Source: Fimbriimonadaceae bacterium (GTDB lineage: Bacteria > Armatimonadota > Fimbriimonadia > Fimbriimonadales > Fimbriimonadaceae). Taken from it: a stretch of DNA of 64,000 nucleotides. Of this stretch, positions 6,181-25,191 are shown one piece after another; within the stretch, counting starts at the first letter, position 1; every line of letters begins with the position of its first letter. The notes under the pieces were generated by a model. The model did no database searches. It was not told the DNA's origin and saw only the letters and a program-made list of their open reading frames with translations. The position numbers were made by a program, and so were the translations under genes. The DNA is taken from assembly GCA_023957775.1 (NCBI GenBank), contig JAMLGR010000019.1, positions 1-64,000 of the forward strand, in the 5' to 3' direction.

Positions 6181-6315
6181 CGACGAGAACGGAGCTCTCA
6201 TGAGACGAGAAGCCTTCGAGCGGGTCCAACGGCTGCTCGCCCTTCTTGCAGAGGGTCGCGGCCCATGAGCGAATTGGCGGAGCTTTCATCGCGCTCATCT
6301 GGGAGCGCATGTCTC

Positions 6316-6852: not shown

Positions 6853-6866
6853 CGTAGGATGGTTGG

Positions 6867-8702
6867 TTGGCGGAAATCCATGATCTCGTGCGGTTGAAGG
6901 ACCTGGAGGGGCTTGAACGGCTCCTCCGGACCCACCCGGATGCTCGCTCGCTCGTGAACGAGCAAGACAGCTGGGGCACGGCGCCGCTTTTCCACGCCCT
7001 CGACTGCGACGATCCCGATGCGCGTATCGTGAAGGCGCTTCTCGATGCCGGCGCAGATGTTGGGTACGCGCGGGTCTTCGATATTCCTGACGTAGCGGGA
7101 TTCGTAGATGGCTTCGACGAGCTCCTCGGCGAGCATGGAATCGAGTTTCCCAAGTCCTTCTCCCTTCCAACAGGTCCCTTCACCGAGCCCGTTTTGCCGA
7201 TGGCGCTTCGGACTGGAGATATGGCGATCGTTCGACTGTTCTCCGAGCACGGTGCCGATCTTCGATACACGCGCGAGGCTGGGTACAACGCCATTCTCGA
7301 TGCCGTATATGTCCGTCGGGATGAAACGGACGTCGTCGAATACCTGCTGGAGCTCGGAGTCTCGCCGGACGTCCGGTCGAGCTTTGGCGAAACGCCGGTG
7401 GTCGTCGCGCTGCGCAATCAACGCTTTCGGTTGCTCGCACGACTCGTGGCGTTCGGCGCAGATCAGGCCCCGATTGCTTGGACCCCGCTGATCCGAGCCG
7501 CGGCCATCGGAACGTTGAGGGACGTTCAAGAGGAACTCGGAAAGGATGCCGATTTGAATGCGGTCGCGTCAACGGATCACACGGCGCTTCAGATTGCGTT
7601 GATGCGGGGCGACGAAGGGATCGTCGATGCTCTGTTGGCGGTGGGAGCCTCCCCCGCGAAGCAGGGGGACAGGGGACCCTCCTCGCTCGTTTGCGCGATC
7701 CTGGGCGGCTCGACGTCTCTCGTCCAGCGGATGCTGGATGCCGGTTGCCCCGTCGATGAACCGAATGAGATGGGTCAGTCGGCTCTGGCATGCGCGGCGG
7801 AGAGCGGGAACCACGATCTTGTTCGCCTCTTGGTCGAACGTGGAGCGGACCTATCCTCGGACGGTTGCGGAGACTCCATTCTCAGCCATGCCAAGGACAG
7901 CCAAACGGCACTCCTGTTGATTCGAGCTGGAGCCGAACTTACCAATCTTGACAAAGAAGCAATTCGGAGGCTCGTCGGCCTTCCGGAGGTCGAGCCGGCG
8001 TTTTTGGCGGGTGTCACCAAGGCCCAGTACATGGAGGCGCGACACCAGCGAGAGGGGCGGGCGAATCCGGAGGATCTGAGCCAGCCCTACCGTCTCGCGA
8101 TGATCCGAGCCGGTTGCAACGCGTACGAGGCGCGGAGCCGTTTTGACGACCCTGCAAAGGTCGCGTGCGGGATCTCCTGGAACAGGCGCCCTCCGCAAGT
8201 GTGGTGCTTCGATCGGTTTGGCCGGTCGTTCACGCTGCTGCCGGATGGGCGGACCATTCTGATCGCGGGCGAACATGAGGATTACTACGATCCGGACTTC
8301 TGCATCTACAACGACGTCGTGGTTATCCACCCGGGAGGCGAGGTCCAAATCTTCGGATATCCGTACGAAGTCTTCGAACCGACAGACTCTCACACGGCGA
8401 CCCTCGTGGGGGACTCCATCTGGATCGTGGGCGGCCTTGGCTACCCGGACCAGCGCAATGGTCGGATCCCCGTCTACCGCCTCGACACCATGGATTATTC
8501 GATCCATCGAGTGGAGACCAGCGGCGACGTCCCTCCGCGCGTCTACGGCCATCGGGCCGAGCTCGTCGAGAACGCCCTTGTCATTCGCGGAGGGCAGGCG
8601 ATCGTGACTTCATCCAAGGGCGAGGAACACCGAGACCTCGAGGAGGTCTTTGCCCTGGATCTGGAGACCGGTCGCTGGCAACGTCGACCAGCGACTTCTT
8701 GA
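6867..8702 (+). CDS. Ankyrin-repeat protein with a C-terminal kelch-like propeller region
   Basis: The product is 611 residues, starting at TTG 6867 after taggatgg. Residues 1-380 hold about nine ankyrin-type repeats (for example TALQIALMRGDEGIVDALLAVGA and SALACAAESGNHDLVRLLVERGADL). Residues about 430-605 hold kelch-like blades (FTLLPDGRTILIAGE, GDSIWIVGGLG, ENALVIRGGQA, VFALDLETGRW). There is no signal peptide, so it is cytoplasmic and probably a protein-binding scaffold. It lies alone between the AbiE pair and the nuclease-helicase. A partner is unknown. Confidence 0.75.
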   Translation: MAEIHDLVRLKDLEGLERLLRTHPDARSLVNEQDSWGTAPLFHALDCDDPDARIVKALLDAGADVGYARVFDIPDVAGFVDGFDELLGEHGIEFPKSFSLPTGPFTEPVLPMALRTGDMAIVRLFSEHGADLRYTREAGYNAILDAVYVRRDETDVVEYLLELGVSPDVRSSFGETPVVVALRNQRFRLLARLVAFGADQAPIAWTPLIRAAAIGTLRDVQEELGKDADLNAVASTDHTALQIALMRGDEGIVDALLAVGASPAKQGDRGPSSLVCAILGGSTSLVQRMLDAGCPVDEPNEMGQSALACAAESGNHDLVRLLVERGADLSSDGCGDSILSHAKDSQTALLLIRAGAELTNLDKEAIRRLVGLPEVEPAFLAGVTKAQYMEARHQREGRANPEDLSQPYRLAMIRAGCNAYEARSRFDDPAKVACGISWNRRPPQVWCFDRFGRSFTLLPDGRTILIAGEHEDYYDPDFCIYNDVVVIHPGGEVQIFGYPYEVFEPTDSHTATLVGDSIWIVGGLGYPDQRNGRIPVYRLDTMDYSIHRVETSGDVPPRVYGHRAELVENALVIRGGQAIVTSSKGEEHRDLEEVFALDLETGRWQRRPATS

Positions 8703-8727: not shown

Positions 8728-11700
8728 CTACCTGTTACCCGCTGCGGCCATCTCGACGTACCGACAAAGCGCGTTCACGAGCCGCACCTGTTGCGGGCTG
8801 CGGCAATCGACCTCCAACAGGCTCGGGCAGGCCACAACGACCACCGCGCACTTCGCCCGCGAGGTGGCCACGTTCAGCCGGTTGAGGCTGTAGAGGAAGC
8901 CCAAGCCGCGCGGCGCGTCCTCTGGCGTCGAGGTGGTCATCGAATAGATCGCGACCGGAGCCTCTTGGCCCTGGAACTTGTCGACCGTTCCCACCCGTGC
9001 CCCGGGGATCGCGGTTCGAATGGCGCCGACTTGCGCGTTGTAGGGAGCGATGATGAGGATGTCTTGCAGGCCGATGCGATGCGTGCGGCCGCCCTTGTCG
9101 GTCCAGGTGCCTCCCGAGACGAGCCGGCGCACCAACCGGGCGATGCAGTCCACCTCCTCTTCCGATGACGATTGATTGCCGGTGTGGGGAACCGGCACGA
9201 AATGCGGGCCGGCGCCCGTGAACTCGCTGCAGTCGTCCAGCCTTTGGACAGCCAGCGTTGGCTCGGCCCCAAGGCGCGAATCGTAGAACGCCTCGGACGT
9301 GAACGCGGCGATCGAGGGGTGGAGCCGATGGGTCTTGGGGAGGAAGATGCCGCGGTCTTCTGGAATCGTGGCACGCTCTTCGAGCAGGTGGTCCAGGGGC
9401 GAGACGCCGACGCCGGGAGGGTGGGTGCCCTTTTGAGGTCGCTCGAGCTGCTGGGGGTCTCCGATGAGCAAGAGACTCTTGGCCGAGTGCCCGATCGCCA
9501 GGACATCCGGCAGAGCGAGTTGGCTGGTTTCGTCCACCACCAGCACGTCCACCGCTTCGGCGAACTCCTCGCGTGCCCAAAGGAACTTCGTTCCGCCAAG
9601 GACGTCGGCCTCGCCTTGGATCGCCGCCAGGGCCTGGTCGTTGCCCGAGCACACCTCGATCCCGGGGTCCTCCTCGTCGCCCTTGCGAGCCACCTTCACC
9701 GTTGTGCCCGAAGCGCGGCCGGCAGAGAGCACCTCGTTGAGCAGCTTTCGGATCACCGGGTGGCTGTTGGCCGTGACCCCCACCTTCTTGCCCTGGGAAA
9801 CGAGATCGACGATGAGGCGCGCGCCCAGGTAGGTCTTGCCCGTGCCCGGAGGGCCTTGGATCGGCAACACCGTGTTGTCGAGTTGTCGGCAGACCGCCTT
9901 GGCCTCGGCGAGAAGATCTTCGATCCGGTCCGGGGAGAATTCGAACACTCCGTCCGTGAGGCGGGGGGGCCGGCGCAGGAGGAGCTCGCGAACGGCTTGG
10001 CATGGGCCTGGGCCCTCGATTCCGTGCTCGACGACCCACTGGGCGAGCCGCTCGAGGGCGTTCTCGAAGACCTTGGTATCGAAGAACGTGCGCAGTCCGT
10101 ACACGCCGATCGGGTGAAGGTGCTTCGACTTCCCGGTCTTCTTGATGTCGATCGTGCGTTCGGCCGCGTCGAGGGATTCCAACTTTCCCATGCGTCGATC
10201 GTCAGGGTCGTAGAGGTCTTCGTCCCGCAGTTGGCACTCCTGGACAGGGAAGCGGTAGCGGTGGATGGGCGCCTTGGCCGTACCGCCCACCTCGCCCACG
10301 AACTCGAGGTCGGCCAGAGCGCATCGCTCGTCTGCGTACTCGTCGTAGCCCAGGTCCTTGAGGCGGTAGCGCTCCCAAAACTCGACCTTGCTTTCCCGCC
10401 AGTAGTAGTCGAGGCTGTGCGCGAGGAGCCATTTGGCCTGCTGCTCTGCCGTGCGCTCCTTCTCCTCGACGGGAGTGCCTTCCGTGAGAGCCTCGATCAA
10501 GGTCTGGACGCGCACCCTTCGCTCGTCGAGTTCTGGAGTTTCGACCTCCTCGACCACCGGGCGGGGGATCTCCTGTCCCTTCTCGATCTGACCCGCGCGG
10601 ACCCTTTCGAGCCAATCGCGCAAGACGAGCGTCGAATCGCAGTCGTCGCGGTTGTAGCCCAGCACGGTTTCGCGCGTCGATGGGGCGACGGCCTCCAGTT
10701 CGCCCAGCTCGATGGCTCGTTCCAGATCCGCGCGGGCGAACCGCGCCTCCTCGAGGGGCACCTGGCGATCGAAGCCGAACACGGTCTCCAGGTCCTTGAT
10801 CGAGTAGCGCTCGACGCCGGCGATCATGCTCTCGCGCACGACCCGGTGGAGATCGACGAAAAGGTGGCTGCGCAGCCAGTCGTCGATGGTGTCCTCGCAC
10901 GTCGCGTACGCGCCCATGAGCCGCTTGAGGGCGGCGGGTTCGTACGGCGCGAAGTGGAAGATGTGCAGATCGGGGTGGCTGCGCCTGCGCCCCTCGACCA
11001 ACGCCACGAGCCACTCGAACGCCGCCTTCTCCTCGGATTCCGTGAAGGCCCATCGCCCTTCGTAGGCGGGGTTCCCGTCGGCGTTCTTGAACGAAACGCC
11101 GAACAGGTACTTGAGGCCGCGCAATCCCGCGAAGGGATCGCCCTCGAGGTCCAGGAACACGTCGCCCGGGCTCGGTTCTGGCAGTCGAGCCAGCCCCAGC
11201 CCGGGCTCTTGGGTGCGGAGCTGGTAGAGCGGCGTGTCCAGGCCGCGGCTCTCCACCTGGATGCGCGCCTGCTCTCGAATGCGCTCATAGGAGGCGACGG
11301 CACCTCGCGCTGGCTTGAAGGGGATGGGAAGCGGGAGCCCCGCCAAGGCGGTTACGGTGGCGACGTTGCGTTCGGTGAGTTCGCGTCGTTGCGCTCGGCT
11401 GATGCCGGCCACGAGGGACAGGTGGTCGTCGCGGCGCCACACTCGGTCGCACTCGGACCACCAGCGGCAGATCTCGCAGTGCGCGACCGGCTCGGGCTGG
11501 GTCTCCTCGGCCGGCTCGGAGGCGACCGCCGCGAGCAGGGAGTTCTTGGTCTGCCGGTAGTAGGCCATAGCATCGCTCGTGCGGTACCAGACGGGCTCCA
11601 TCGACAGGGGCGTGACGACGCCCGTTCGTTTGGGCAAGAGCCCTTGGATCGCGCCCACCAGCTCGGAGTAAACGCAGAGCTGGAGGATCGTCTCGGCGCG

Positions 11701-12123
11701 CGTCTCGCGGGCGAGTTTCGTGTCGATGACCTCGTACGACCAGTCGCCCAGCTCGCTGGGCGTGTCGGTCCGCAGCAGGATGTCCGCGCGCCCGTGCCAG
11801 GGGTGGGTGGCGAGGCTGGCCTGCACGATCACGGCGACGCCCGAGCGCATGAGCTCGACGGTGCGCTCGACCGCCGTTTTCGAGTCCAGGTCGGGGCTGA
11901 GTCTCACATGCTCCGCGCCCAAGGTGTCGCGAAGGTGCCGAAGATACGCCTCTTCGTGTTGGAACCCCCGCTGTTGCAGCGCCTCGAGGTTGGCGTCTCG
12001 CCACATGGGCGCTCTGATTTCCCCGCGGGCCGCCTTGAGATTGAGCTGCGTGAGATGCCGGCAGCCCAGATGGTTCGCGAGATCCGAGGCGGAGAACCGA
12101 AGGCCATCGGGACTCTGCTGCAT
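8728..12123 (-). CDS. TM0106-family RecB-like nuclease fused to SF1 helicase
   Basis: The product is 1131 residues. The N-terminus (to about 190) has a RecB-like nuclease core (GRADILLR, then YEVIDTKLAR) and a Cys cluster (CEICRWWSEC) that may hold an Fe-S site. The middle (about 330-530) is a DEDD/YprB-type 3'-5' exonuclease-like domain (VFLDLEGDPF, FHFAPYEPAAL, YNRDDCDSTLVL). The C-terminus is an SF1 helicase with Walker A GPPGTGKT, Walker B VLVVDETSQ, motif III GDPQQL, GTVDKFQGQE and LNVATSRAK. Such proteins act in DNA repair or phage defence. It is transcribed divergently from the PD-(D/E)XK-like gene at 12256. Confidence 0.85.
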   Translation of the reverse strand: MQQSPDGLRFSASDLANHLGCRHLTQLNLKAARGEIRAPMWRDANLEALQQRGFQHEEAYLRHLRDTLGAEHVRLSPDLDSKTAVERTVELMRSGVAVIVQASLATHPWHGRADILLRTDTPSELGDWSYEVIDTKLARETRAETILQLCVYSELVGAIQGLLPKRTGVVTPLSMEPVWYRTSDAMAYYRQTKNSLLAAVASEPAEETQPEPVAHCEICRWWSECDRVWRRDDHLSLVAGISRAQRRELTERNVATVTALAGLPLPIPFKPARGAVASYERIREQARIQVESRGLDTPLYQLRTQEPGLGLARLPEPSPGDVFLDLEGDPFAGLRGLKYLFGVSFKNADGNPAYEGRWAFTESEEKAAFEWLVALVEGRRRSHPDLHIFHFAPYEPAALKRLMGAYATCEDTIDDWLRSHLFVDLHRVVRESMIAGVERYSIKDLETVFGFDRQVPLEEARFARADLERAIELGELEAVAPSTRETVLGYNRDDCDSTLVLRDWLERVRAGQIEKGQEIPRPVVEEVETPELDERRVRVQTLIEALTEGTPVEEKERTAEQQAKWLLAHSLDYYWRESKVEFWERYRLKDLGYDEYADERCALADLEFVGEVGGTAKAPIHRYRFPVQECQLRDEDLYDPDDRRMGKLESLDAAERTIDIKKTGKSKHLHPIGVYGLRTFFDTKVFENALERLAQWVVEHGIEGPGPCQAVRELLLRRPPRLTDGVFEFSPDRIEDLLAEAKAVCRQLDNTVLPIQGPPGTGKTYLGARLIVDLVSQGKKVGVTANSHPVIRKLLNEVLSAGRASGTTVKVARKGDEEDPGIEVCSGNDQALAAIQGEADVLGGTKFLWAREEFAEAVDVLVVDETSQLALPDVLAIGHSAKSLLLIGDPQQLERPQKGTHPPGVGVSPLDHLLEERATIPEDRGIFLPKTHRLHPSIAAFTSEAFYDSRLGAEPTLAVQRLDDCSEFTGAGPHFVPVPHTGNQSSSEEEVDCIARLVRRLVSGGTWTDKGGRTHRIGLQDILIIAPYNAQVGAIRTAIPGARVGTVDKFQGQEAPVAIYSMTTSTPEDAPRGLGFLYSLNRLNVATSRAKCAVVVVACPSLLEVDCRSPQQVRLVNALCRYVEMAAAGNR

Positions 12124-12255
12124 GGGACGATGTTACCGGGTGAGTGTGGATGTCGCCGGCGGGAGGGGGGGAGCGTTCCTCGCCGCGGGGCGGCCATCAT
12201 TGCGCGGGACCATACTGAAGGAGGCTCCCGCGCGGGGGGCACGGGAGAACCGGAA

Positions 12256-13386
12256 GTGTCTCAGGTCTACGTCGTCGGATCGAATGGAGCGACCTCATCC
12301 ATGGCGCGAGTGCGTTGCGCCAACGAGGACCTGGAGCTCCAGCAGCTCCTTGAACAGAACCTTGACCTCTTGCCCGGCGACCAAATCAGTCCCGAGGATC
12401 CGCGGAGGTGGCTCTGCATCCAGCGGGAAATGCCGGTGCCCGACCCGTCGGGAGGCGGCGATCGGTGGAGTGTCGACTTCCTCCTTGTCGACCAAGATGC
12501 CGTGCCGACGTTCGTGGAGTGCAAGCGGTATGCGGACACGCGATCCAGGCGCGAGGTGGTCGGCCAGATGATCGAGTACGCGGCGAACGGACATCATTAT
12601 TGGTCCGCCGGACTTCTCCAATCGCTTGCCGAGAAGACGGCCGCCACGTCGACGCTCGCGGATGCTGTGTCGAAGCTGTCGCCTTCCGATCGCGAGGAGC
12701 CGGACGCGTTCTTCGAGCGGGTGGAGCAAAACCTGCGGAGCGGCCGGCTGCGGCTCGTGTTCTTCATGGAGGAGACGCCCTACGAGCTTCGCAGCGCCGT
12801 GGAGTTTCTAAACGGGCAGATGGAGCTCACCGAGGTGCTCCTCGTGGAGGCCCAGCAGTTCACGGACGGCACCGTCCGGGTCGTGGTGCCACGCCTCTTC
12901 GGATACACCGAGCAAGCGAGAATGGTGAAGCGCTCGGTGAGCGTCGGAGCGTCCGGACCTCGGCGGCGATGGGACGAAGAAGCCTATTTCGACCATGCAA
13001 GGGCTCAGCTGCCCGAAGAGCATTTGAGAGCCTTGCGTGAGTTCTACGACGGGGTGGTCAACCTCGGGTTCGAGATCGGGTGGGGAAGCGGGAAAGACAA
13101 CGGCTCGATCAACGTCAAGGACCCGACTCTTGCCCAAAAGTCGCTCCTCACGGTGTACTCGAACGGCCTCCTTGAGACCCACATGGGCTGGTTGGATCTG
13201 AGCGAAGGCGAACGTCTCGTGGGCGCGCGCCTACAACAGGCGCTTGAACCAATCTTAGGCGAGCGAGTCACCAACAGTTCGCTCAAGCACATCCAGTTTC
13301 CAATCAACGAGTGGTCGTCAAAGGTCGGCAAGCTCCTTGCGGCATTAGGCCAGGTGCGGGGAGCTGCTGCAGGACCTGGGCCGTAA
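12256..13386 (+). CDS. PD-(D/E)XK endonuclease-like protein
   Basis: The product is 376 residues from GTG 12256; no better start with a ribosome site is seen. Residues 55-105 hold WSVDFLLVDQDAVPTFVECKRYADT, the D...(E)xK pattern of restriction-endonuclease-like folds (compare NucS/DUF91-type proteins). REVVGQMIEYAANG follows. The C-terminal half is soluble and unassigned. It is divergent from the nuclease-helicase with 130 bp between them, so a shared regulatory region and joint function in DNA defence or repair are plausible. Confidence 0.6.
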   Translation: MSQVYVVGSNGATSSMARVRCANEDLELQQLLEQNLDLLPGDQISPEDPRRWLCIQREMPVPDPSGGGDRWSVDFLLVDQDAVPTFVECKRYADTRSRREVVGQMIEYAANGHHYWSAGLLQSLAEKTAATSTLADAVSKLSPSDREEPDAFFERVEQNLRSGRLRLVFFMEETPYELRSAVEFLNGQMELTEVLLVEAQQFTDGTVRVVVPRLFGYTEQARMVKRSVSVGASGPRRRWDEEAYFDHARAQLPEEHLRALREFYDGVVNLGFEIGWGSGKDNGSINVKDPTLAQKSLLTVYSNGLLETHMGWLDLSEGERLVGARLQQALEPILGERVTNSSLKHIQFPINEWSSKVGKLLAALGQVRGAAAGPGP

Positions 13387-13668
13387 GCGATCGTTCCTTA
13401 CTCGCATGTTTCTGTTCGTTGCAGAGATTGGCAAAGTTCTACGGAACAGCGCTGGGCGACCGGTATCACGGACTCCTCAAGAACGGGAGCAAGCTCGAAG
13501 TCGACGCGCAGATGGCGGCGCGCGAGTCCACCCGGGGGACAGAACTCTGCGACCGCCGCGGAGATGTCGCCTGGAACCTCTTGCTTTACATCCGCGTCTA
13601 TTATTGACAAGGATGGAATAACAGTCCTGCAACGAGGGCAAGAACAGCCCGCAATGTAAAGGCGCGAT

Positions 13669-14877
13669 ATGGCACTCACTCAAGAACAGCTAGGTCAACG
13701 GTTGCAGGACGCTCGGAAGAGCGTCGCCCTCACTCAGCAAGAAGTCGCTGACGGCCTTGGGTTGTCCCGTGAGTCGATCGCCCAGATCGAGGCGGGCTCT
13801 CGCAGCGTGAATTCGCTGGAGATCGTCCGGCTCGCCAGGCTCTATGGCCGTTCGCTCTCCTCCATCCTCCTCGAAGAAGACGCGCAGGAAGAGGAGCCCC
13901 TCACCGCTTTGTTCCGAATGCAGGACGCCCTCGCCGAGTCCCCCGGGCTGCGGGGCAAACTCGTCGAGTTCTCGAACATCTTCCAAGAAGCCCGCACCAT
14001 CGAGCGGCTGGTCGGCGACGAGCCGAGGCAGCTTCCGCCCGACTATGGCATCCGGGATCCCCGCAACAACTTCGAGGCATACGAGCAGGGGCAAGAGTTA
14101 GCCAAGCAGGAGCGACAGCGGCTTGGTCTCGGTTATGGCCCGATTCCCGACGTCGCCGAAGTGATCTCGATGCAAGGCATCTGGGCCGTGTCGGCGAAAA
14201 TGCCGGACATCGTCTCAGGGATCTGCCTCTTCCACTCGGCCATCGGGGCCGCGGTCATCGTGAACCAGACCCACAGCCGGAGCAGGCGAAGGTTCTCCTA
14301 TGCCCACGAATACGCCCACGTCCTGGCCGACCGCAAGACCCGAGTCGCGTCGGTCAGCAGCTCAAGCAACTCCAAGGAGTTGATCGAGCGACGGGCCAAC
14401 AGCTTCGCAAGCGAGTTCCTCATGCCTTCGCGCGGAGTCATCGACCTGCTTGACCGCATCGACAAGGGCGGGCCGAGCCGCGAGACCATGTGGCTCTTCG
14501 ACCCGGCCACCGAACTCGGTGAGGCGATTGAAAAGCGGAACGCGCCCGGCTCTCAAGAGATCGCCTTTCACGACGTCGCTTTCGTCGCCGACTGGTTCCA
14601 GGTCAGCTACGAAGCCGCCGCCTATCGGCTCAGCGACCTCGGCAAAGTCAACCGGGACAAGCTCCAGGTTCTCCTCGCCCAAAAGGAAGAAGGCCGACCC
14701 CTCATCGAAGACCGTGGGGAAGAGCAGCCGTTCCTCAACACTTATGTCCGCTGGCTCGCCCGAGAGGCTTACCGGAGGGAAGCGATCTCAGGTGGACGTT
14801 TCCGAGATTTTGTCGCCCTCGCCGGACTCGACCCCGACGACGAGTTTCAACGGGTGAGGGAGCACTTCGACGACTAA
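13669..14877 (+). CDS. XRE-family regulator fused to ImmA/IrrE metallopeptidase
   Basis: The product is 402 residues. Residues 1-65 are an XRE helix-turn-helix (VALTQQEVADGLGLSRESIAQIEAGSR). Residues about 135-260 are an ImmA/IrrE domain with FSYAHEYAHVLADR, the HExxH zinc site, and a downstream ERRANSFASEFLMP where the third ligand (E) lies. The C-terminal 130 residues are helical. Family members cleave or control repressors in phage and mobile-element regulons. The stop (TAA 14875-14877) directly abuts the ATG of the PIN-like gene, so the two are co-translated, probably as a toxin-antitoxin-like pair. Confidence 0.85.
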   Translation: MALTQEQLGQRLQDARKSVALTQQEVADGLGLSRESIAQIEAGSRSVNSLEIVRLARLYGRSLSSILLEEDAQEEEPLTALFRMQDALAESPGLRGKLVEFSNIFQEARTIERLVGDEPRQLPPDYGIRDPRNNFEAYEQGQELAKQERQRLGLGYGPIPDVAEVISMQGIWAVSAKMPDIVSGICLFHSAIGAAVIVNQTHSRSRRRFSYAHEYAHVLADRKTRVASVSSSSNSKELIERRANSFASEFLMPSRGVIDLLDRIDKGGPSRETMWLFDPATELGEAIEKRNAPGSQEIAFHDVAFVADWFQVSYEAAAYRLSDLGKVNRDKLQVLLAQKEEGRPLIEDRGEEQPFLNTYVRWLAREAYRREAISGGRFRDFVALAGLDPDDEFQRVREHFDD

Positions 14878-15381
14878 ATGGAGGAGTCGGTTCTCATCGC
14901 GGACGCATCGACGCTCCTCAATTTCTTGAGGGTGCGTCGTTTCGACTTGATGCAGGGGCTCGGCTACCGGATCCGGATAGTAGACGCCGTCTTCGAGGAG
15001 ATTCAGTCCGAACGGGAGCACCTCGAAGAACTGGTCAATGACGGCCATATCAGGACGCTGACCTTGGAAGGGAAGGCGATCACGGGCACCGTGGCCACAC
15101 TCCTCGGCCTGGGCCTCGGAAGTGGCGAATCGTTCTCGTTCGCCGCGGCCATCGAGTTCGAAGGAGCCGTCGCCATCGACGACCGAAGGGCGGTGAATCG
15201 AGTCAAATCGGTGAGCCCGAACCTTAAGATCCTGACCACTCCGGACATCGTCGTGGCCGGGATCCACTCCCAAATCATCAGCTTGGAGGAAGCCGACCTT
15301 TTGAAGGCCGACTGGGCTGAGAACCACCGATTTCGCCTTAAGCTTGTGACGTTTGCCGACGTGTTGGAGGGGCGTCGATGA
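14878..15381 (+). CDS. PIN-domain-like nuclease, putative toxin
   Basis: The product is 167 residues starting one base after the previous stop. The acidic pattern of PIN nucleases is visible: LIADASTLLNFL (first D), EEIQSER (E), LGLGSGESFSFAAA (E), and VAIDDRRAVNRV (D pair), followed by a third-region PDIVVAG. PIN domains are RNases. The arrangement XRE-ImmA/IrrE followed by a PIN-like protein recurs in bacterial conflict loci. Whether it is a toxin here is inference. Confidence 0.75.
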   Translation: MEESVLIADASTLLNFLRVRRFDLMQGLGYRIRIVDAVFEEIQSEREHLEELVNDGHIRTLTLEGKAITGTVATLLGLGLGSGESFSFAAAIEFEGAVAIDDRRAVNRVKSVSPNLKILTTPDIVVAGIHSQIISLEEADLLKADWAENHRFRLKLVTFADVLEGRR

Positions 15382-15417
15382 CGGAAGCCCGGACGCGTCG
15401 GTCACGGATGAGAGGCC

Positions 15418-15879
15418 CTAAGGCAGCGCCTCGCGAACCTGTTCCACGCACGCGCCGAGGTCCTCCTTCAGCTCGCACTCCCAGAACGTGAGCACGCGCC
15501 ACCCCCGTGCCTCAAGTTCGAGAACGACCTGCGCGTGGCGAGCGACGTTGGTCTCGACCTTGGCCTGCCAGTAGGCCGTGTTGGTCTTCGGCAGGCGGTA
15601 GCGTCCGCACCGCTCGCACCGGTGCCAAAAGCACCCGTGGACGAACACCGCCACCCGCGCCTTGCCGAACGCGAGGTCCGGCTTTCCGGGCAGACGGGCT
15701 ACGTTCTTGCGGTAGCCGCGCGCGCCCGCCGCCCACAGGGCCCGGCGCAGCCGCACCTCGGTGGACGTGTCTTTGCCGCGGTTCGCCTGCATCGATTTGC
15801 GGGTGGACTCGGCGACGACGAGCGTTTCGCGCATCTCCGCGAACGAGTAGCGGGCCGAGGGCGGGCGTTTGCGTGCCAC
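15418..15879 (-). CDS. vsr: Very short patch repair endonuclease (Vsr)
   Basis: The product is 153 residues from GTG 15879. Conserved Vsr features are present: SFAEMRETLVVAESTRKSMQANRGKDTSTE at the start, then RKNVARLPGKPDLAF (catalytic D), VAVFVHGCFWHRCERCGRYRLPKTN (zinc-binding Cys/His), YWQAKVETNVARH, and the terminal GWRVLTFWECELKE. Vsr nicks at T:G mismatches that arise from deaminated 5-methylcytosine. Its usual partner, a C5-methyltransferase, is not adjacent but lies 6 kb away (21722-22915), where a second, ruined vsr copy is found. Confidence 0.9.
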   Translation of the reverse strand: MARKRPPSARYSFAEMRETLVVAESTRKSMQANRGKDTSTEVRLRRALWAAGARGYRKNVARLPGKPDLAFGKARVAVFVHGCFWHRCERCGRYRLPKTNTAYWQAKVETNVARHAQVVLELEARGWRVLTFWECELKEDLGACVEQVREALP

Positions 15880-15949
15880 GGTTGGATTCAGGATGGCAGA
15901 TGGCCGCGGCCCCCTTGCCAGGACCGGCGCGGCGTGCGATAATGAGGGT

Positions 15950-16144
15950 GCATCAAGAGCGAACCGCCAGTGGGTTCCGGCAACCGGGTGAGAGACGCCA
16001 CGGTGCCTCGAGGCTTCGGCCTCAAATGCGCGGGGAAACCCGAACGAAGGTCTCTGGAGCGTGATGCCCACGTCCCCTCTTGAAGGCGGACGTGGGCATT
16101 GTCGTTTCCACTCTTGGTGCGGATGTCCGAATGAGGTGAACCGC
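15950..16144 (+). promoter_or_regulatory. Candidate SAM-I/IV-class riboswitch, copy A
   Basis: P1 is GCATCAAGAG (15950-15959) with CTCTTGGTGC (16111-16120, one GU pair). A short hairpin GAACC/GGTTC (15961-15977) is followed by CCGGCAACC (15977-15985). Stem AGAGAC (15991-15996) pairs with GTCTCT (16050-16055) and encloses CACGGTGCC and a GAGGC-TTCG-GCCTC hairpin. A CGGGGAAACCCG hairpin follows. AUCAAGAG, CCGGCAACC and GGUGCC are hallmark SAM-riboswitch core strings. A 12-bp hairpin (ATGCCCACGTCC at 16063) is specific to this copy. GAGGTG lies 6 nt before the ATG of the ribbon-helix-helix gene. The class is inferred. Confidence 0.65.
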
Positions 16145-16336
16145 ATGAAGAAGCAACGACGATCCCAGGCGCGGGACGAGATCCTGCACATCCGCATCGA
16201 CTCCGAACTCAAGGAGGCGTTCTTCGAGCTGGCGGCGCGAAGGGGCCGTTTCGCGTCCGAGGTCCTGATCGAACTCATCGAAAGGGCTCTGGCCGAGGAC
16301 GCGCGATTGTGTACACAACTTTCGCGCCCCGCCTGA
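16145..16336 (+). CDS. Ribbon-helix-helix-like small protein
   Basis: The product is 63 residues with ribosome site GAGGTG. The sequence DEILHIRIDSELKEAFFELAARRG fits a beta strand followed by two helices, as in MetJ/Arc (CopG-type) DNA-binding proteins and antitoxins, and SEVLIELIERALAED forms the second helix. It lies entirely between the two structured RNA leaders and so has its own switch. It may regulate the following MoxR operon or be a lone antitoxin-like factor. Confidence 0.6.
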   Translation: MKKQRRSQARDEILHIRIDSELKEAFFELAARRGRFASEVLIELIERALAEDARLCTQLSRPA

Positions 16337-16350
16337 GCTACATTCAAACA

Positions 16351-16511
16351 GCATCAAGAGCGAACCCCTTGGGGTTCCGGCAACCGGGCGGGAGACGCCA
16401 CGGTGCCTAGAGGCGAGAGCCTCGATGTGCGGGGAAACCCGAACGAAGTCTCCGGAGCGGGAGGATCCCGTTCCCCCTCTTGATGCGGACGACCGAACGA
16501 GGTGAACCGCA
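16351..16511 (+). promoter_or_regulatory. Candidate SAM-I/IV-class riboswitch, copy B, before the MoxR-metK operon
   Basis: P1 is GCATCAAGAG (16351-16360) with a perfect partner CTCTTGATGC (16477-16486). P2 is GAACCCC/GGGGTTC (16362-16377), followed by CCGGCAACC. Stem GGAGAC (16391-16396) pairs with GTCTCC (16448-16453) around CACGGTGCC and a GAGGC-GAGA-GCCTC hairpin. Compared with copy A, the outer pair of this stem changes A-T to G-C and the apical loop TTCG becomes GAGA while pairing is kept. GAGGTG sits 7 nt before the TTG start at 16512. The downstream operon codes for S-adenosylmethionine synthetase, which supports SAM as ligand. Control is probably at translation, as no poly-U terminator is seen. 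Confidence 0.7.
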
Positions 16512-17933
16512 TTGAAGACCGTCGCCAGAACGACAAACGACCAACGACAAACGACAAACGACGCCCTCAAGGGCCTCGGGGTCTTCGGTTTCGCCGAGGC
16601 CGAGCTTCCCATCCTCGCGGCGCTGGTCACGGAAGACCCCCTGTTGCTCATCGGAAACTCGGGCACGGGGAAGACGTACCTGCTGAACTCGATCAGCGAA
16701 GCCCTGGGTCTCGAGCACCGGCACTACAACGCGTCGCTCGTGTCGTTCGACGACCTGGTGGGCTTCCCGTACCCGGACGACGAGAAGGCGAGCGTCCGGT
16801 TCCTCGAAACTCCCGCCACCGTGTGGGGCGCGGAGTCGGTGCTCATCGACGAGATCTCGCGCTGCCGACCCGAGCACCAGAACCGGTTGTTCTCGCTGAT
16901 CCACGAACGCAGGGTGCAGGGCATCGCGCTGCCTCGGCTGCGGTTCCGGTGGGCCGCCATGAACCCCTGCACCACCGACCACGCGATGGAGTACGCGGGC
17001 AGCGAGCCGCTCGACCAAGCGCTGGCCGACCGTTTCGCGCTGGTCGTGAACGTCGTGGATTGGGACGACCTCGAGGATGCGGACCGATTGGCCGTGGCGA
17101 ACCCCTCGGGCGAGGGGGCGGTGTCCGACGACGGGGGCGCGCTGGCAAGACGCCTTGCCCAGTTACACGCGGCGTTCGTCGAGCGCGTCGAGCGGTGCCC
17201 AGAGCCGATCGTCGCGTACGCCTGCGCGGCCGCGACGGCCTTGAACGACGCCGGAATCCGCATCTCGCCGCGCCGCGTGCGCCTGCTTGCGCGCTCCTTG
17301 CTCGCGGGGACGCTGGTGGCGGGCAAAGGGATCGACGAGACCGTGTTCCGCGCAATCCTGCGCGCGTCGATCCCCCACCGCGCTTGGGGCGCCGAGCCGT
17401 CTGCCGAGCACGTGTTGGCCGCGCACAGGCTTGCGTGGGACTCTGCGTGCCTCAAGGGAACGAGGAGGTGGATCCACGAGTTCCACCTCGAGAAGCGGCT
17501 GCCCAAGAAGGTCGCGCGGCTCCTCGGCGCGGCGCCGGACGCCGACTCGGGCACGCTGGCCCTCTGCCAGTGTCTGGCAACCGAGCGTCCGGCGCGCGCG
17601 GCCGTGCTGGCGTTCGCGCTGTTCCCCGCGGCGGTGCAGGGGAAGTTGCCGATCGGGGCCGAGGCGGTCAACGATCTCGGGAAGCTCGCCCAGCCGTTGC
17701 TGCAGGTGAACGCGGATATCTCGTGGCAGGAGAGGCTTTCCGAGAGCGGCACCCAACACCCCGAGTTCGCCCGGCTCGCCCCCCTGCTGGCCAAACTCGG
17801 CGGCGCGCGGCAAAGGCGTGCCAGGCAACTGTTCTACTGGGCGATCGCCAACGGCGTGGCCCTCGAAGATCCGGAAGGCCTCGAGCGCGATCTGGAGGCG
17901 TGCGTGGCGCTCGTGGGGAGATGCTTGAAGTGA
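16512..17933 (+). CDS. MoxR-type AAA+ ATPase
   Basis: The product is 473 residues from TTG 16512, placed by GAGGTG at 16499 and by the matching position of the ATG in copy A. It has Walker A GNSGTGKT (about residue 48), VSFDDLVGFPYPDDE, Walker B VLIDEISRC and sensor 1 WAAMNPCTT, as in MoxR/AAA_5 proteins. The C-terminal 220 residues are helical. Residues 5-19 (ARTTNDQRQTTND) come from a short tandem DNA repeat. MoxR ATPases work with VWA-domain partners to remodel or mature target proteins; that partner is two genes downstream. Its stop overlaps the next start. Confidence 0.85.
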   Translation: MKTVARTTNDQRQTTNDALKGLGVFGFAEAELPILAALVTEDPLLLIGNSGTGKTYLLNSISEALGLEHRHYNASLVSFDDLVGFPYPDDEKASVRFLETPATVWGAESVLIDEISRCRPEHQNRLFSLIHERRVQGIALPRLRFRWAAMNPCTTDHAMEYAGSEPLDQALADRFALVVNVVDWDDLEDADRLAVANPSGEGAVSDDGGALARRLAQLHAAFVERVERCPEPIVAYACAAATALNDAGIRISPRRVRLLARSLLAGTLVAGKGIDETVFRAILRASIPHRAWGAEPSAEHVLAAHRLAWDSACLKGTRRWIHEFHLEKRLPKKVARLLGAAPDADSGTLALCQCLATERPARAAVLAFALFPAAVQGKLPIGAEAVNDLGKLAQPLLQVNADISWQERLSESGTQHPEFARLAPLLAKLGGARQRRARQLFYWAIANGVALEDPEGLERDLEACVALVGRCLK

Positions 17934-18445
17934 ACGGCCCATACCCTCTGGGAACACTCCCCGCCTGCGTCCCACAAACCACAAACCACAAACCACAAAC
18001 CGTGGAATGCAACACCGGCGGCCCGCGGAGCCGCACCCGCACCGAGCACCTGCACGCCACGGTGTTGGGCCGGGGCGGCGGACTGCGGTGCCCCAAGTTG
18101 CGGCACGTCGGATTGAAGTTCGAGAAGGGCCACGATCCCGTCGAGCGGATGGAGGCGCTTCTCGAGCGGCTCGGATACAGGTCGGCGCTGCAGGCGCGCG
18201 AGGCCCTGGCCGACCGGCTTCCCGACGAGGTGTTCCTCGCCATGCCCGGCCGGCTTCGGCCCACGCTGGCCGTGAATCTGCGCCAGCCCCGTGCGGTGTT
18301 GACGGACGTGCTGGTCGAGGGCTTGGTGCTTGGCTTGTGCAGCGCCAACCTGTACGATCCCGGCCGCCCCGTTCTCTGGACGCGGGCCAGCCTGACGCGT
18401 AGGCTCGATCTGTTTTCCGTTGGGGGTTTCTATGAAGCTGACTGA
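17921..18445 (+). CDS. Hypothetical protein between MoxR and VWA genes
   Basis: The product is 174 residues from ATG 17921; GTG 17930, overlapping the MoxR stop as GTGA, is an equally good start. The N-terminus contains low-complexity text (PQTTNHKPQTVE) from a tandem ACAAACC repeat. The rest is helical (DPVERMEALLERLGYRSALQAREALADRLPDE) and ends GLVLGLCSANLYDP...LFSVGGFYEAD. I recognise no family. Overlaps with both neighbours (the next ATG is at 18432) suggest tight co-translation, so it is probably an adaptor or third subunit of the complex. Confidence 0.65.
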   Translation: MLEVNGPYPLGTLPACVPQTTNHKPQTVECNTGGPRSRTRTEHLHATVLGRGGGLRCPKLRHVGLKFEKGHDPVERMEALLERLGYRSALQAREALADRLPDEVFLAMPGRLRPTLAVNLRQPRAVLTDVLVEGLVLGLCSANLYDPGRPVLWTRASLTRRLDLFSVGGFYEAD

Positions 18446-19736
18446 ATCCCGGTTCCGCGCGCTCGTCGCCGAACTGTTGGACGAGAATCCCGTGGCGATC
18501 CGCCCGGTGCTCAAGATCTTGCGCATCCGGTTCACGGAAGAGGTGCCGACGCTCGCGGTGACTCTTGAAGAGCGCCCGAGACTGCTCGTGAACCTCGGGT
18601 TCCTCGCCTCGAACTGCGCCAGCGACGAGCACGTGAAGGCGTGCGTCGTGCACGAGTTTCTGCATGTGGTGCTTGGCCATACCGAGCGTTTCCGCCACAT
18701 GGACACCGGGCAGAACGTCGCGTTGGACGCCGTGATCAACGCCATCATCCATCGGACCATGGGTGTTCGGTACAGCGGCTTCTTCCTCAAGTTCTATGGG
18801 AAGGAGAAGGGCGTGTTTCGGATGCTTCGTCCCGCGAACTCGGCCGAGAGGCGGGGGCGGCGCCGGGAGCCGAGCCGTTTCGAGCAAGTGTGGGACGGCG
18901 TCTACGAGGGCCGTTTGGTGGCGGACGACATTCTGGGATTGGCGTGCAGGTTCCCCAATGGTGTCCGCACCCCTCTCTTGATCGGGAACCACGATGCGGC
19001 GGGGGGATCGCTGCCCAAAGCACTGGAGGACGCGGTCGGCGAGTCGATGCGCTCGATGAACGGGGACGGCATCTGGCGCTCCCCCAAGGACCGCGGGGTG
19101 GGCGCGTCGGCGTACGAGGCCGTGGTCGCGGCGCCGAACCCCGCGAAGGAGTTGTGGCGGCGCCGGACGTTCGAGGCGTTGCGGGAGTGCGTGGTGCCCG
19201 ACCGCCGCGCGCCGATCCGCGAGGTCGTCGAGAGCGAGTACCGCGTGCCGGTGCTGAGCGCGCGCGACCGCCGCGCGTTTCTTCGCACCTTGTGGTCGCC
19301 GATCATGCCCGATGCGGGATGGTGCTCGACCGAGCATCGACCCACCGGTTACGCGAACGTGTACCTCGACGTGTCGGGTTCGATGAACGCGGAGATGCCG
19401 GACATCATCGCGCTGCTTGCGAGTCTGAGGAGGGCGATCCGCATGCCGTTTTGGGCGTTCAGCGACGAGGTCGAGCCCGCGACGATCAGGGACGGCGCGC
19501 TGGTGACGCGCACGACGGGCGGCACGAGCATGCGGTGCGTGCTCGAGCACTTGGCGCACACGCGGCCGCCGGCGGCCGTGGTGGTGACCGACGGCTACAT
19601 CGAGGAGGTGGACCCCCGTGCGGTGCGCGCGTTGGGTTCGATGCGGCTCCGGGCGATCGTGACGCGGGACGGCAATCCCGGGTTGCTCGAGCGCGCGGGC
19701 ATTCCCACGACCCAGTTGGAGGAGTTGCCGAGATGA
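18432..19736 (+). CDS. Metallopeptidase-VWA protein (DUF2201-like)
   Basis: The product is 434 residues from ATG 18432. The N-terminal domain has VVHEFLHVVLGHTERF (about residues 75-90), an HExxH zinc site with a third His, as in the DUF2201 N-terminal peptidase-like domain. The C-terminal domain is a von Willebrand A fold with a complete MIDAS: DVSGSM (DxSxS), TGGTS (T) and TDGYIEE (D). Such proteins pair with MoxR ATPases as substrate binders or activated proteases. It overlaps the metK-like start by ATGA, so both are translated together. Confidence 0.8.
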   Translation: MKLTESRFRALVAELLDENPVAIRPVLKILRIRFTEEVPTLAVTLEERPRLLVNLGFLASNCASDEHVKACVVHEFLHVVLGHTERFRHMDTGQNVALDAVINAIIHRTMGVRYSGFFLKFYGKEKGVFRMLRPANSAERRGRRREPSRFEQVWDGVYEGRLVADDILGLACRFPNGVRTPLLIGNHDAAGGSLPKALEDAVGESMRSMNGDGIWRSPKDRGVGASAYEAVVAAPNPAKELWRRRTFEALRECVVPDRRAPIREVVESEYRVPVLSARDRRAFLRTLWSPIMPDAGWCSTEHRPTGYANVYLDVSGSMNAEMPDIIALLASLRRAIRMPFWAFSDEVEPATIRDGALVTRTTGGTSMRCVLEHLAHTRPPAAVVVTDGYIEEVDPRAVRALGSMRLRAIVTRDGNPGLLERAGIPTTQLEELPR

Positions 19737-20938
19737 TCCGATTCAGCGAGATGGTGTTGCCCGGGCACCCAGACAAGTTGTGCGACCAGATCGCGGACGC
19801 CGTGCTCGCCGAGGCGTACCGCGCGGACCCTCAGGCGTACGGCCAGATCGAGGTCGCAGCCTGGTGCGACGAGTTCTTCCTCACCGGCGGGATCGCGACC
19901 CGCAAGCCGCTGGCTGTGCCGTTGGAGGAGATCGTCCGGCGCGTGGGCCGGGAGGTGGGTTACACCGGGTCGAACGCGATCCAGGCGGATCGGTGGGTCG
20001 TGCGGGACGCGGTGTGCCGGGACGTGCGGGACCCGAGGGAGTGGACCGAGCACGTGAACGACCAGTGCCTAGTGGTCGGCTACGCGTTCGGCGATGCAAG
20101 GACGAGGTTCCTCCCGCCCGAGCACTATCTGGCGCACGTGTTCCGAGAGGCTCTGACGGCCGCGTGCCGGGAACCCCTCGCCCCTCCAGGGGTGAGGGCC
20201 AGGGGTGAGGGGTCCCTCCCGGGCAAGGGTGAGGGCCTCCAAGGCCAAGGCCCCGACGGCAAGCTCCTCGTCCGCATGCGCGAGGAGGGCGAGCGCTGGA
20301 CCCTCGAGCACGTGCTGGTGACGTTGCAGCAGCTGGAGTCGACCCCGTTCATGGACGTCTGCGCCGGGGTGGCAGAGTGCCTGAGCTTGGCCTACGAGGG
20401 GGTCCGCCGCGCCGACCCCCGCTGGCTCCGCCCCTGGGCGGAGGTCGACCTGCTCGTCAATCCCAACGGCCCTTTGATCAACGGTGGTCCGGACGGCGAC
20501 AACGGCCAGACGGGTCGAAAGCTTGCGATGGATTTCTACGGCCCCCGCGTCCCGCAGGGCGGAGGGGCGTTGAGCGGCAAGGACCTCACCCACATCGACC
20601 GTGCCGGATCGTATGCTGCACGCCGCGCCGCGGTGCAGGCGGTGTCCACCGGGGCTTCCGAGTGTCTGGTGAAGGTGGCCTACGCCCCGAACGTCGATGC
20701 GCCGCTCGACGTGGTGTGGGAGATGCGCGGGTCAGGGTCGCGCACGGTGAGGGAGGCGTTCGCCCACTCGTCGATTCGGCGGGAGGCGGCGGAGTGGGGC
20801 GCCTGCGTGGAGCGGGGGGTAGGGGATCACTTCTGGTCCGAGGCGCCGTGGAACGAGGCCCCGATGTGGGACGAGGCGGCGGGCAAGCTAGACGAAGGCG
20901 GGCTAAAGGCGGATTTGGGATATTGCCCGCGACGGTAG
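19733..20938 (+). CDS. metK: Divergent S-adenosylmethionine synthetase
   Basis: The product is 401 residues, close to the usual 380-400. It should make SAM from methionine and ATP. Conserved text is GHPDKLCDQIADAVL (residues 10-24), GGPDGDNGQTGRK, and GGGALSGKDLTHIDRAGSYAAR, the phosphate and metal-binding regions. The usual GAGDQG loop reads VNDQC, a change that may alter activity. An in-frame insertion of about 30 residues (APPGVRARGEGSLPGKGEG) from a GGGTGAGGG-type DNA repeat sits just before GPDGK. It is the last gene of the riboswitch-led MoxR operon. It may be a second MetK, because housekeeping copies are rarely in such an operon. Confidence 0.85.
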   Translation: MIRFSEMVLPGHPDKLCDQIADAVLAEAYRADPQAYGQIEVAAWCDEFFLTGGIATRKPLAVPLEEIVRRVGREVGYTGSNAIQADRWVVRDAVCRDVRDPREWTEHVNDQCLVVGYAFGDARTRFLPPEHYLAHVFREALTAACREPLAPPGVRARGEGSLPGKGEGLQGQGPDGKLLVRMREEGERWTLEHVLVTLQQLESTPFMDVCAGVAECLSLAYEGVRRADPRWLRPWAEVDLLVNPNGPLINGGPDGDNGQTGRKLAMDFYGPRVPQGGGALSGKDLTHIDRAGSYAARRAAVQAVSTGASECLVKVAYAPNVDAPLDVVWEMRGSGSRTVREAFAHSSIRREAAEWGACVERGVGDHFWSEAPWNEAPMWDEAAGKLDEGGLKADLGYCPRR

Positions 20939-21721: not shown

Positions 21722-22915
21722 CTACGACACAGCAAGAGAGTAACGGCTCTCAATGTACTGCCTCAAAGAAGGCAAGAACACCGGGTGGAATCGAAGCGAT
21801 GAGCGCTCGGCTCGTTCCAAGAACCCCTTCACCGCTCGTTCGGACAGAGGTTGCAGGTCGTCTTCTAGGAAGTCGGTGATAGGTTTGAACGCCGCAGTGC
21901 GAGGAAACACCGAAAGGTCGACAGCAAATCGTTGCCCACCGGAACCACAAGCCGCCCGCGGCCAGGGATCTCCTTTCGGCAGCGGTCGCTGCGTTCCGAG
22001 TGGGGGTCCTGGACACTGGAGTCTCTCGCCAATCCAGTTTGCGACAGGCACACTGACCGCGTTCCCGACCATTCGCCATCGCGACCGACTCTGACGTGGA
22101 GTAAGACAATCAACATCGGTCCAATCGGCCGGAAAGCCCTGGAGCCGTTCGACGTCCCGGATTCCGGGTGTCCCCACGAAGTCGCGCGATGGGAGCCAGA
22201 TTGCGGGCGGGGAGGGAATCCCCAGTCCGGATCCGCCCTTAAGCGTGGGAACAGAATCCTCGGCCCAACCCAGCCCACGCAGACCCTCGGTCCAGAAGAA
22301 CCCGTATGCCTTTGGGCACCTGAATGCCAGATCCTCGCTGGCCTCGTCGGCAAAGAGCACGGTTCTTGGATCTTCGGTTCGCGAGGCAAGGAGAAACACG
22401 CGCTGTCGTCGCTGTGGAAGGCCGAAGGACCTCGAGTCGACAACACGATAGGCCCAAGAGAATCCTAAACCCTCCAACGTCCCCACAAGTACGTTCATGG
22501 CCTCTCCCTTGCGCAAGCTCAGCATGAAGGGGACGTTCTCAAGGAGCAGGAACCGGGGACAGGTGGATCTTCGCTCGACAAGTCGAAGAACCTCGTAGAC
22601 CAGCGAAGAGCGTAGACCGCTCATTCCCATTGTGAGGCCCGCTTGGCTCAAATCCTGGCAAGGAAACCCTGCGGCGAGAACGTCGACCTTGGGAATCGAC
22701 CGAAGATCCCGTACGTCCGCGACCAACTTCACTTCCGGAAATCGCTTAGAAAGAACCGCTTGACACGCGGTGTCGTTCTCGCAGAGCAGCTCCGATACGA
22801 AACCCGACTGGGACAAACCAAGCTCGATTCCTCCGATTCCGGCGAACAGGCCGATGGCTCGGGGAGGCTCCGAGTGCTTTGCTTCGCCGGAGTCCGTCCC
22901 CTTCTTCATCGTCAT
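21722..22915 (-). CDS. dcm: DNA (cytosine-5-)-methyltransferase
   Basis: The product is 397 residues. C5-methylase motifs are in order: I AIGLFAGIGGIELGL (about residue 20), IV GFPCQDLSQAG with the catalytic Cys, VI LLENVPF, VIII QRRQRVFLLAS, and IX/X RLQGFPADWTDV with RWRMVGNAVSVPVANW. The target-recognition region is short, and about 110 unassigned residues follow motif X. It pairs with the nuclease at 20965 as a type II restriction-modification system, and a decayed vsr lies just upstream. Confidence 0.93.
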   Translation of the reverse strand: MTMKKGTDSGEAKHSEPPRAIGLFAGIGGIELGLSQSGFVSELLCENDTACQAVLSKRFPEVKLVADVRDLRSIPKVDVLAAGFPCQDLSQAGLTMGMSGLRSSLVYEVLRLVERRSTCPRFLLLENVPFMLSLRKGEAMNVLVGTLEGLGFSWAYRVVDSRSFGLPQRRQRVFLLASRTEDPRTVLFADEASEDLAFRCPKAYGFFWTEGLRGLGWAEDSVPTLKGGSGLGIPSPPAIWLPSRDFVGTPGIRDVERLQGFPADWTDVDCLTPRQSRSRWRMVGNAVSVPVANWIGERLQCPGPPLGTQRPLPKGDPWPRAACGSGGQRFAVDLSVFPRTAAFKPITDFLEDDLQPLSERAVKGFLERAERSSLRFHPVFLPSLRQYIESRYSLAVS

Positions 22916-23148
22916 GCTGCAGCCTTCCCGTCCCGTCTTCGATACCAGTTCACGTTAGACTCAGAGTATCACAGTATGTTTCGTTGTGTCTACCCATGAG
23001 CGTGGCCCCAACATTGCTTAGGCCTCTTAGGATGGACGAGAGCGAGACCCTCCGGGAATCCCCTGTTTTTCCCCAGCGGCAGCGCGGTGTCTGGTTCGCC
23101 CTGACAGCCCGCGAGTTGACTCGATGCACACTAAGTTCACCAGATGGT

Positions 23149-23437
23149 AGATCCGCTGGACGCTTCCTTCCAGATCCTCCCTCACCTCGCACTCTCAAAG
23201 CATCAACCGCAATCCCGCCTCTTCCTCAACGACGATCTCCGCTTTGTAGCGCACGACATTCGTCTCAACCATGGTCAGCCAGTACTCCGGGTTGGTCTCG
23301 CACTCGCGCCGCCCAAGCGCGCTGCGTTGTAGCCCTTGGGGGCGAGGTCCCCATCCCACCGTTGGCTCGCATCAACGGCCGCGTGGTCTCGGCCACCACG
23401 TGAGTTTCACGCTCCTCAGCGAAGGAGAGGATCGTGC
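23149..23437 (-). pseudogene. vsr pseudogene with internal deletion
   Basis: On the minus strand the N-terminal text LSFAEERETHVVAETTRPLMRANGG (23437 to about 23360) matches the start of the intact Vsr at 15879. In another frame the C-terminal part continues: NPEYWLTMVETNVVRYKAEIVVEEEAG and then, after a stop and shift, ECEVREDLEGSVQ. The central zinc and catalytic region (VFVHGCFWHRC) is missing. It lies next to the dcm gene, the normal vsr position, so the local partner has died. Confidence 0.75.
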
Positions 23438-23842
23438 CTAGCGGATTCTTGCCCGATACGATTGCTCTCTGATTGATTGGCCAAGGGAGGGACTTAGACG
23501 TCCTTGCAACTGACGGTTTGGGGAACTCCGCCCATGTATGCCACGGCACAGCAGACAGTTGAAAATGCCGTGCGTGCACGACGTGGTTGCCAATGGCAAT
23601 CGGCCGCTTGACGGATCGAGATCCGCGCCCGGGTGGTTTGCGTAACGGGTATTCACGAAGCGTCAGGTGGCGAGGTGCTCGGACGTAACCGACCGTCCCG
23701 GCTCCGGAATCAAACTGCGAGTTCGAGGTTCGTGGCCTTAGCGTGATGCGAGTGTTCGGCCACCACTCGGTCCTGACGCGATCGGTCAACGCGTTTGTTT
23801 CGGCGGACCATGGCCGAAGAGGTAACCTCACCAACCTAGGCC
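23438..23842 (+). other. No gene seen
   Basis: These 405 bp lie between the vsr remnant and the HSDR_N-EVE gene. Open frames here are short and lack recognisable protein text on both strands. No RNA-like hairpin array or repeat stands out. Confidence 0.5.
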
Positions 23843-25012: not shown

Positions 25013-25191
25013 TCTCTCCGGCGAGGAACCTCGTTTCTTGATGATACGAAGGCCACCGCCAAACGGTGAGGAGAGTCATTTAAGGGGATGAGCTCCTGCT
25101 ACCAAACTCATGCGCCTCATGAAGCCGGGTAGCACCTGTGACCTTTGACCGTAGAGTGGTAGCTATCGACCGGTGTTCGAGAGAGGGGTGC

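Follow-up and report, generated by a model that had tools for sequence, protein, structure and literature searches.

Duplicated SAM-I/IV riboswitch leaders precede a MoxR-X-vWA-MetK' operon and suggest feedback-controlled SAM synthesis in a Fimbriimonadaceae bacterium

We analyzed a stretch of 64,000 nucleotides (hereafter the window) from a Fimbriimonadaceae bacterium and identified two copies of a SAM-I/IV riboswitch leader, associated with a four-gene operon, MoxR-X-vWA-MetK', that encodes a divergent S-adenosylmethionine (SAM) synthetase paralogue. We hold with good confidence an overall reading in which the duplicated leaders would act as OFF switches and place the MetK' operon under feedback control; an activating role of MoxR and the vWA protein is a more tentative part of it.

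The two leaders occupy positions 15950-16144 and 16351-16511 and share a common core, as a preliminary description of this DNA had outlined. They are identical at 95 of 108 core positions and, ribosome site included, at 86% of 197 aligned nucleotides, indicating that the whole leader was duplicated up to the start codon. Both copies exceed the curated cut-off (41.1 bits) of the Rfam family RF01725 (SAM-I-IV), with 51.9 bits and an E-value of 1.3e-5 for the copy 1 aptamer (15945..16060, plus strand; Rfam match 15945-16058) and 56.7 bits and 1.1e-6 for that of copy 2 (16346..16458, plus strand; Rfam match 16346-16457), consistent with the duplicated, SAM-type switch proposed earlier. By family membership both leaders are SAM-I/IV riboswitches and would be expected to bind SAM; their aptamers are, as judged from sequence, new members of a known family whose first description drew mainly on metagenomes (PMC2864571). 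No further RF01725 copies were found in the 3.5 Mb genome, and scans of the same genome for RF00162 and RF00521 returned no match, the latter result carrying little weight because the controls were equally silent. A sigma-70-like promoter (TTGCCA-17-GATAAT; 15915..15943, plus strand), recognized by consensus match only, lies directly before leader 1 and agrees with the consensus at 10 of 12 positions, with 0 such matches expected in shuffles.

The aptamer fold comprises P1 (15950-15954/16025-16029 in copy 1; 5' strand at 16351-16355 in copy 2), P2, P3, a hairpin (16010-16023 in copy 1), P4 (16031-16042 in copy 1) and a pseudoknot between the P3 loop and the 3' tail (15991-15996/16050-16055 in copy 1; 16391-16396/16448-16453 in copy 2). 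This pseudoknot, which covaries across homologues, is the stem in which the preliminary description had noticed compensatory changes, and the replacement of AGAGAC/GTCTCT by GGAGAC/GTCTCC is confirmed, as is the change of the hairpin loop from TTCG to GAGA. The covariation comparison suggested at that stage was run on 15 SAM-I/IV aptamers (alignment A7) and revealed conserved pairing. In total, 86.5% of cells were paired, a percentage that leans towards copy 1 because the structure was read from that copy, and changes on both sides occurred in 20 of 35 pairs (4 of 6 in the pseudoknot). None of 500 shuffles attained even one of these values, and the signal was lost when the partners were slid. 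The earlier statement that all pairing is preserved is slightly too strong, since in P1 proper the inner pair of copy 1 is mismatched (C-A) and the outer pair of copy 2 is a G-U. Likewise, the reported U-A versus U-G difference exists but sits at the contact between P1 and a downstream anti-P1 strand (CTCTTGATGC versus CTCTTGGTGC). That the resemblance of the two leaders arose by chance, or reflects a repeat other than a riboswitch, is hardly credible: nothing beyond the general caution owed to motif matches speaks for this reading, and the curated cut-off matches, the covariation and the homologues located 5' of the same operon contradict it.

Each leader ends at a ribosome site, in agreement with the preliminary description, with GAGGTGA 5 nt ahead of ATG 16145 and 6 nt ahead of TTG 16512. 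Both carry an anti-P1 strand (CTCTTGGTGC, 16111..16120, in copy 1; CTCTTGATGC, 16477..16486, in copy 2; plus strand) that could pair with the P1 5' strand GCATCAAGAG, of which the copy 2 version is the perfect complement, and in both copies this complementarity beats nearly all of 300 shuffles. An anti-P1 strand also occurs in the relatives L094 (twice), L063, L087, L096 and L103, and was not found in the leaders of several others. Overlapping anti-P1 is the segment UGCGG, whose possible partner CCGCA lies around the start codon; pairing of the two would enclose GAGGUGA. The resulting plus-strand hairpins are GUGCGG/CCGCAU in copy 1 (16117..16146), its loop containing GAGGTGA and its foot the start codon, and AUGCGG/CCGCAU in copy 2 (16483..16512), which would hide GAGGTGA.

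These alternative pairings are consistent with a translational OFF switch, the simplest reading of the modeled folds. At low SAM, the 5' strand of P1 would pair with anti-P1, leaving the ribosome site open to translation; once SAM is bound, P1 would close and release anti-P1, and the freed UGCGG would shut translation off by pairing with the CCGCA around the start codon. Translational control is preferred because no intrinsic terminator was found on the coding strand of the leaders. In energy calculations that include neither the ligand nor the pseudoknot, copy 2 folds without constraint into the anti-P1 (ON) state, with -86.6 kcal/mol, compared with -83.1 kcal/mol when P1 is forced (OFF), in which case the RBS hairpin forms unaided. 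For copy 1, the ON and OFF states are nearly equal (-99.0 and -100.0 kcal/mol) and the free MFE of -101.5 kcal/mol corresponds to a third fold, so that its predicted switching is less clear than that of copy 2.

Copy 2 directly precedes the MoxR gene, as described earlier, and would control the entire MoxR-X-vWA-MetK' operon, all of it on the plus strand. The first gene encodes a MoxR-family AAA+ ATPase with a TTG start (16512..17933; Pfam AAA_5, AAA_3), followed by protein X of 147 aa (18002..18445), a metallopeptidase-vWA protein with an HExxH motif (18420..19736; DUF2201/CoxE-like, both below the Pfam cut-off) and MetK', the divergent SAM synthetase paralogue (19733..20938). The presence of a MetK paralogue at the end of the operon, missed in the preliminary description, directly explains why SAM should control it. 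Protein X matches no Pfam family and resembles no PDB fold clearly; its model contains a confident core (pLDDT ~90 or more, residue 31 to ~140), and the PDB comparison gave nothing with E < 1 in Foldseek and only Z 2.0 in VIA-align, which is not proof of a new fold. Short ACGACAAACG-like and ACCACAAACC-like repeats occur at 16535-16562, just past the MoxR start, and around 17975-18000, just before X.

MetK' contains the N- and C-terminal MAT domains of Pfam (E-values of 1.7e-15 and 5.1e-22), and its structure model (pLDDT 86.7) adopts the MAT fold when compared with 5h9u_A (Z 41.4, 2.3 A, 354 residues). Like MetK, it retains nearly all catalytic residues (11 of 12 checked positions); unlike MetK, it has a divergent central part, is encoded beside an AAA+/vWA machine and carries His in place of the second active-site Lys, which we take to be K269 in the E. 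coli numbering of the MAT family. This substitution, found in 32 of 34 MetK', leaves the catalytic residue set incomplete relative to a standard catalytic MetK and suggests that activity may differ. The genome also encodes an ordinary MetK on another contig, and MetK' appears from sequence and model to be a second, presumably active MAT isozyme. The operon product is most likely SAM, in which case control by copy 2 would constitute negative feedback.

MoxR-vWA pairs are known to act on other enzymes, as exemplified by CbbQ/CbbO and NorQ/NorD. By analogy with these pairs, and with the MoxR protein and N-terminal metallopeptidase-vWA partner of jumbo phage group 2.2 (PMC7824862), MoxR and the metallopeptidase-vWA protein may serve as a remodeling or activating machine for MetK', a tentative assignment that we place somewhat below even chances. 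The jumbo phage pair differs in being proposed for virion assembly, and the passage describing it mentions neither MetK nor a SAM switch.

To place the operon in a broader context, genome contigs were scanned with the MoxR alignment, yielding 180 relatives, of which the best 80 were kept. These 80 loci, mostly from MAGs, span Armatimonadota, Acidobacteria, Proteobacteria, Myxococcota, Elusimicrobia, Riflebacteria, Verrucomicrobia, Bacteroidetes, Spirochaetes, Gemmatimonadetes and others. Among the 49 complete loci (≥5 kb past the MoxR start, within the best 80 of 180), X is present in 41 and a vWA gene in 48; MetK' lies downstream in 41 and a MetK-like gene upstream in nine, with one or the other in 47. 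Apart from the four operon genes and an occasional upstream metK, no flanking genes were conserved across loci. MoxR gave no phage match, leading us to set aside a phage origin, and a plasmid origin was rejected on the basis of only partial matches to MoxR in plasmids, at ~30% identity. One IMG/VR contig carries a relative locus (L120), whose leader is identical to that of L109.

The operon is repeatedly linked to SAM switches. Within the best 80 of 180, at least 55 of the 72 loci with ≥600 nt upstream carry a SAM riboswitch (SAM-I, SAM-I/IV or SAM-II) ahead of the operon, the SAM-II type being counted with a regular expression that was written after seeing these loci and has 6 background matches in 1.9 Mb; in about a quarter of the 72, none was recognized. 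The switches 5' of the operon include RF01725, RF00162, RF00521 and sub-threshold SAM-II/SAM-V-like leaders. Our own SAM-I/IV model produced 45 matches in 1.03 Mb; every one has the orientation of the coding strand, and all matches beyond the window are located upstream of MoxR. Across 85 genomes of the host family, SAM-I/IV occurs in all five that encode MetK' versus two of the 80 others (Fisher 6e-7, to be taken as a guide only because the genomes are related).

The linkage of a single operon to unrelated SAM-switch architectures in many phyla provides strong evidence on its physiological role. It points to a little-studied, self-shutting SAM-supply system, and the operon is most likely a horizontally spread, feedback-controlled system of SAM synthesis. 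We regard as evenly balanced the fuller proposal that MoxR-X-vWA-MetK' represents a SAM-homeostasis system that has spread horizontally and has not been described before. In this proposal, an AAA+/vWA machine operates on a dedicated SAM synthetase isozyme, SAM feedback was gained repeatedly and independently through different riboswitch architectures (SAM-I and SAM-I/IV versus SAM-II), and the leader was duplicated to bring additional genes under this control.

Among the SAM-II-like leaders, RF00521 was matched above its cut-off in L046, L064 and L104, and lower Rfam scores were obtained for L108 (32.6, cut-off 41), L052 (25.5) and L072 (34.2, cut-off 36). These leaders, partly below the Rfam cut-off, contain the core AUUUG...CUUGC...GCUAAA. 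An extra 5' hairpin was observed in SAM-II/SAM-V-like leaders of L065 (520-620 and 1644-1746), L085 (6973-7057 and 7892-7978), L073 (7893-7972), L108, L109, L110, L111 and L112, located directly 5' of MoxR or of the gene ahead of it; being mostly below Rfam cut-offs, they are possibly a variant outside Rfam coverage. In L046, a YbjN-family gene (6099-6728) lies between the SAM-II switch and MoxR. At loci from a different family of the phylum (L024, L026, L032), the genes behind SAM-I/IV encode a small unknown protein and an apparent helicase.

Copy 1 is followed by a small open reading frame (16145..16336, plus strand) encoding a lineage-specific, ribbon-helix-helix (RHH)-like protein of 63 aa, which the leader would place under the same signal as the operon. 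The earlier proposal that leader 1 serves a ribbon-helix-helix gene is thus upheld as to the reading frame 3' of copy 1 and weakened as to its identity, the Pfam RHH_1 match (19.0 bits, E 0.0014) falling below the cut-off of 20.5 bits. Because a gene separates the copies, the term tandem, applied to the leaders at first, does not fit them in its usual meaning. Contiguous or tandem riboswitches (PMC12452182) similarly bring two same-class switches close together, but they occupy a single intergenic region and act on a single target, whereas here the reading frame at 16145-16336 intervenes and each switch comes with a separate gene and expression platform. The aptamers conform to RF01725 in sequence and structure, with P1-P4 and the P3-loop/tail pseudoknot; the arrangement differs from that family in its duplication around an intervening gene and in its targets, an RHH-like gene and the MoxR-X-vWA-MetK' operon. 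A true tandem, as judged from sequence, is found in a different genome from this phylum, where two SAM-I/IV aptamers lie 21 nt apart (L020; G100:C219:1771-1887 and 1909-2021, minus strand).

Duplicated same-class leaders before the operon are also present at other loci, of the SAM-I/IV class in L058, L070, L076 (where the gap is only ~120 nt), L094 and L103, of the SAM-I class in L059, and of the SAM-II type in L065, L072, L085, L108, L111 and L112. The genes enclosed by duplicated leaders encode DUF3293, an IS200-like transposase or unknown proteins. This variation suggests that extra genes were repeatedly brought under the switch of the operon, and it argues against a special role for the RHH-like protein; leader duplication would represent a way to recruit genes into a riboswitch regulon. 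In L103, two SAM-I/IV copies flank a gene for an IS200-like (Y1) transposase (6680-7666), and such a transposase is a possible route for leader duplication.

The same variation bears on the layered circuit put forward in the preliminary description, in which a SAM-controlled RHH protein would repress the promoter of the MoxR operon and impose two-step control. The RHH-like gene does sit between both leaders, and a perfect 12-bp palindrome, TTGTGTACACAA (16307-16318), occurs just 5' of leader 2 as the sole match within the window when up to 2 mismatches are allowed. However, ~0.4 such matches are expected in the window by chance, the palindrome belongs to the final part of the RHH reading frame itself, and no homologue of the gene was found in 84 other genomes of the family. 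Taken with the sub-threshold RHH_1 match, these observations make a layered circuit quite improbable.

A further alternative is that the operon constitutes a conflict or defense module, in which the switch opens on a fall in SAM, for example when a phage enzyme degrades it, whereupon MetK' and the AAA+/vWA proteins replenish SAM for DNA methylation or trigger a response. Its patchy distribution across phyla, the C5 DNA methylases encoded close by, both in the window and in L099, and the Vsr, nuclease and helicase genes around the operon would fit such a role, as would the T3 SAM lyase-MetK complex among solved structures. MoxR-vWA proteins are, moreover, known from ternary conflict systems (PMC7159879), which likewise combine a MoxR ATPase with a vWA partner plus an additional component; unlike those systems, the present operon has X as its third gene and MetK' as its fourth, no VMAP, iSTAND, FtsH or beta-propeller partner was recognized, and the bpMoxR model of the MoxR-vWA-beta-propeller system scored 16.2 bits against a cut-off of 27. 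The flanking genes are not common to the loci, methylases appear in few of the neighborhoods read, and MoxR, vWA and MetK' of the window lack a strong PADLOC match, which together render a defense function unlikely.

SAM feedback on a SAM-synthesis operon, our preferred reading, gives the MoxR-vWA system and protein family X a concrete, testable function in SAM supply or SAM-synthetase maintenance. While the riboswitch family is known, its recurring operon partner was without description in the open-licence literature searched, where no paper joining MoxR with SAM riboswitches was found; a description elsewhere is possible.

The regions of the window on either side of the leaders and operon (8728-15900 and 21722-26889) are rich in DNA-processing genes, including a helicase/nuclease, a Vsr endonuclease, a C5 DNA methylase and a NERD-UvrD helicase. 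The same regions also encode an HTH-M78 protein, followed by a PDC-S70-like protein of 167 aa.
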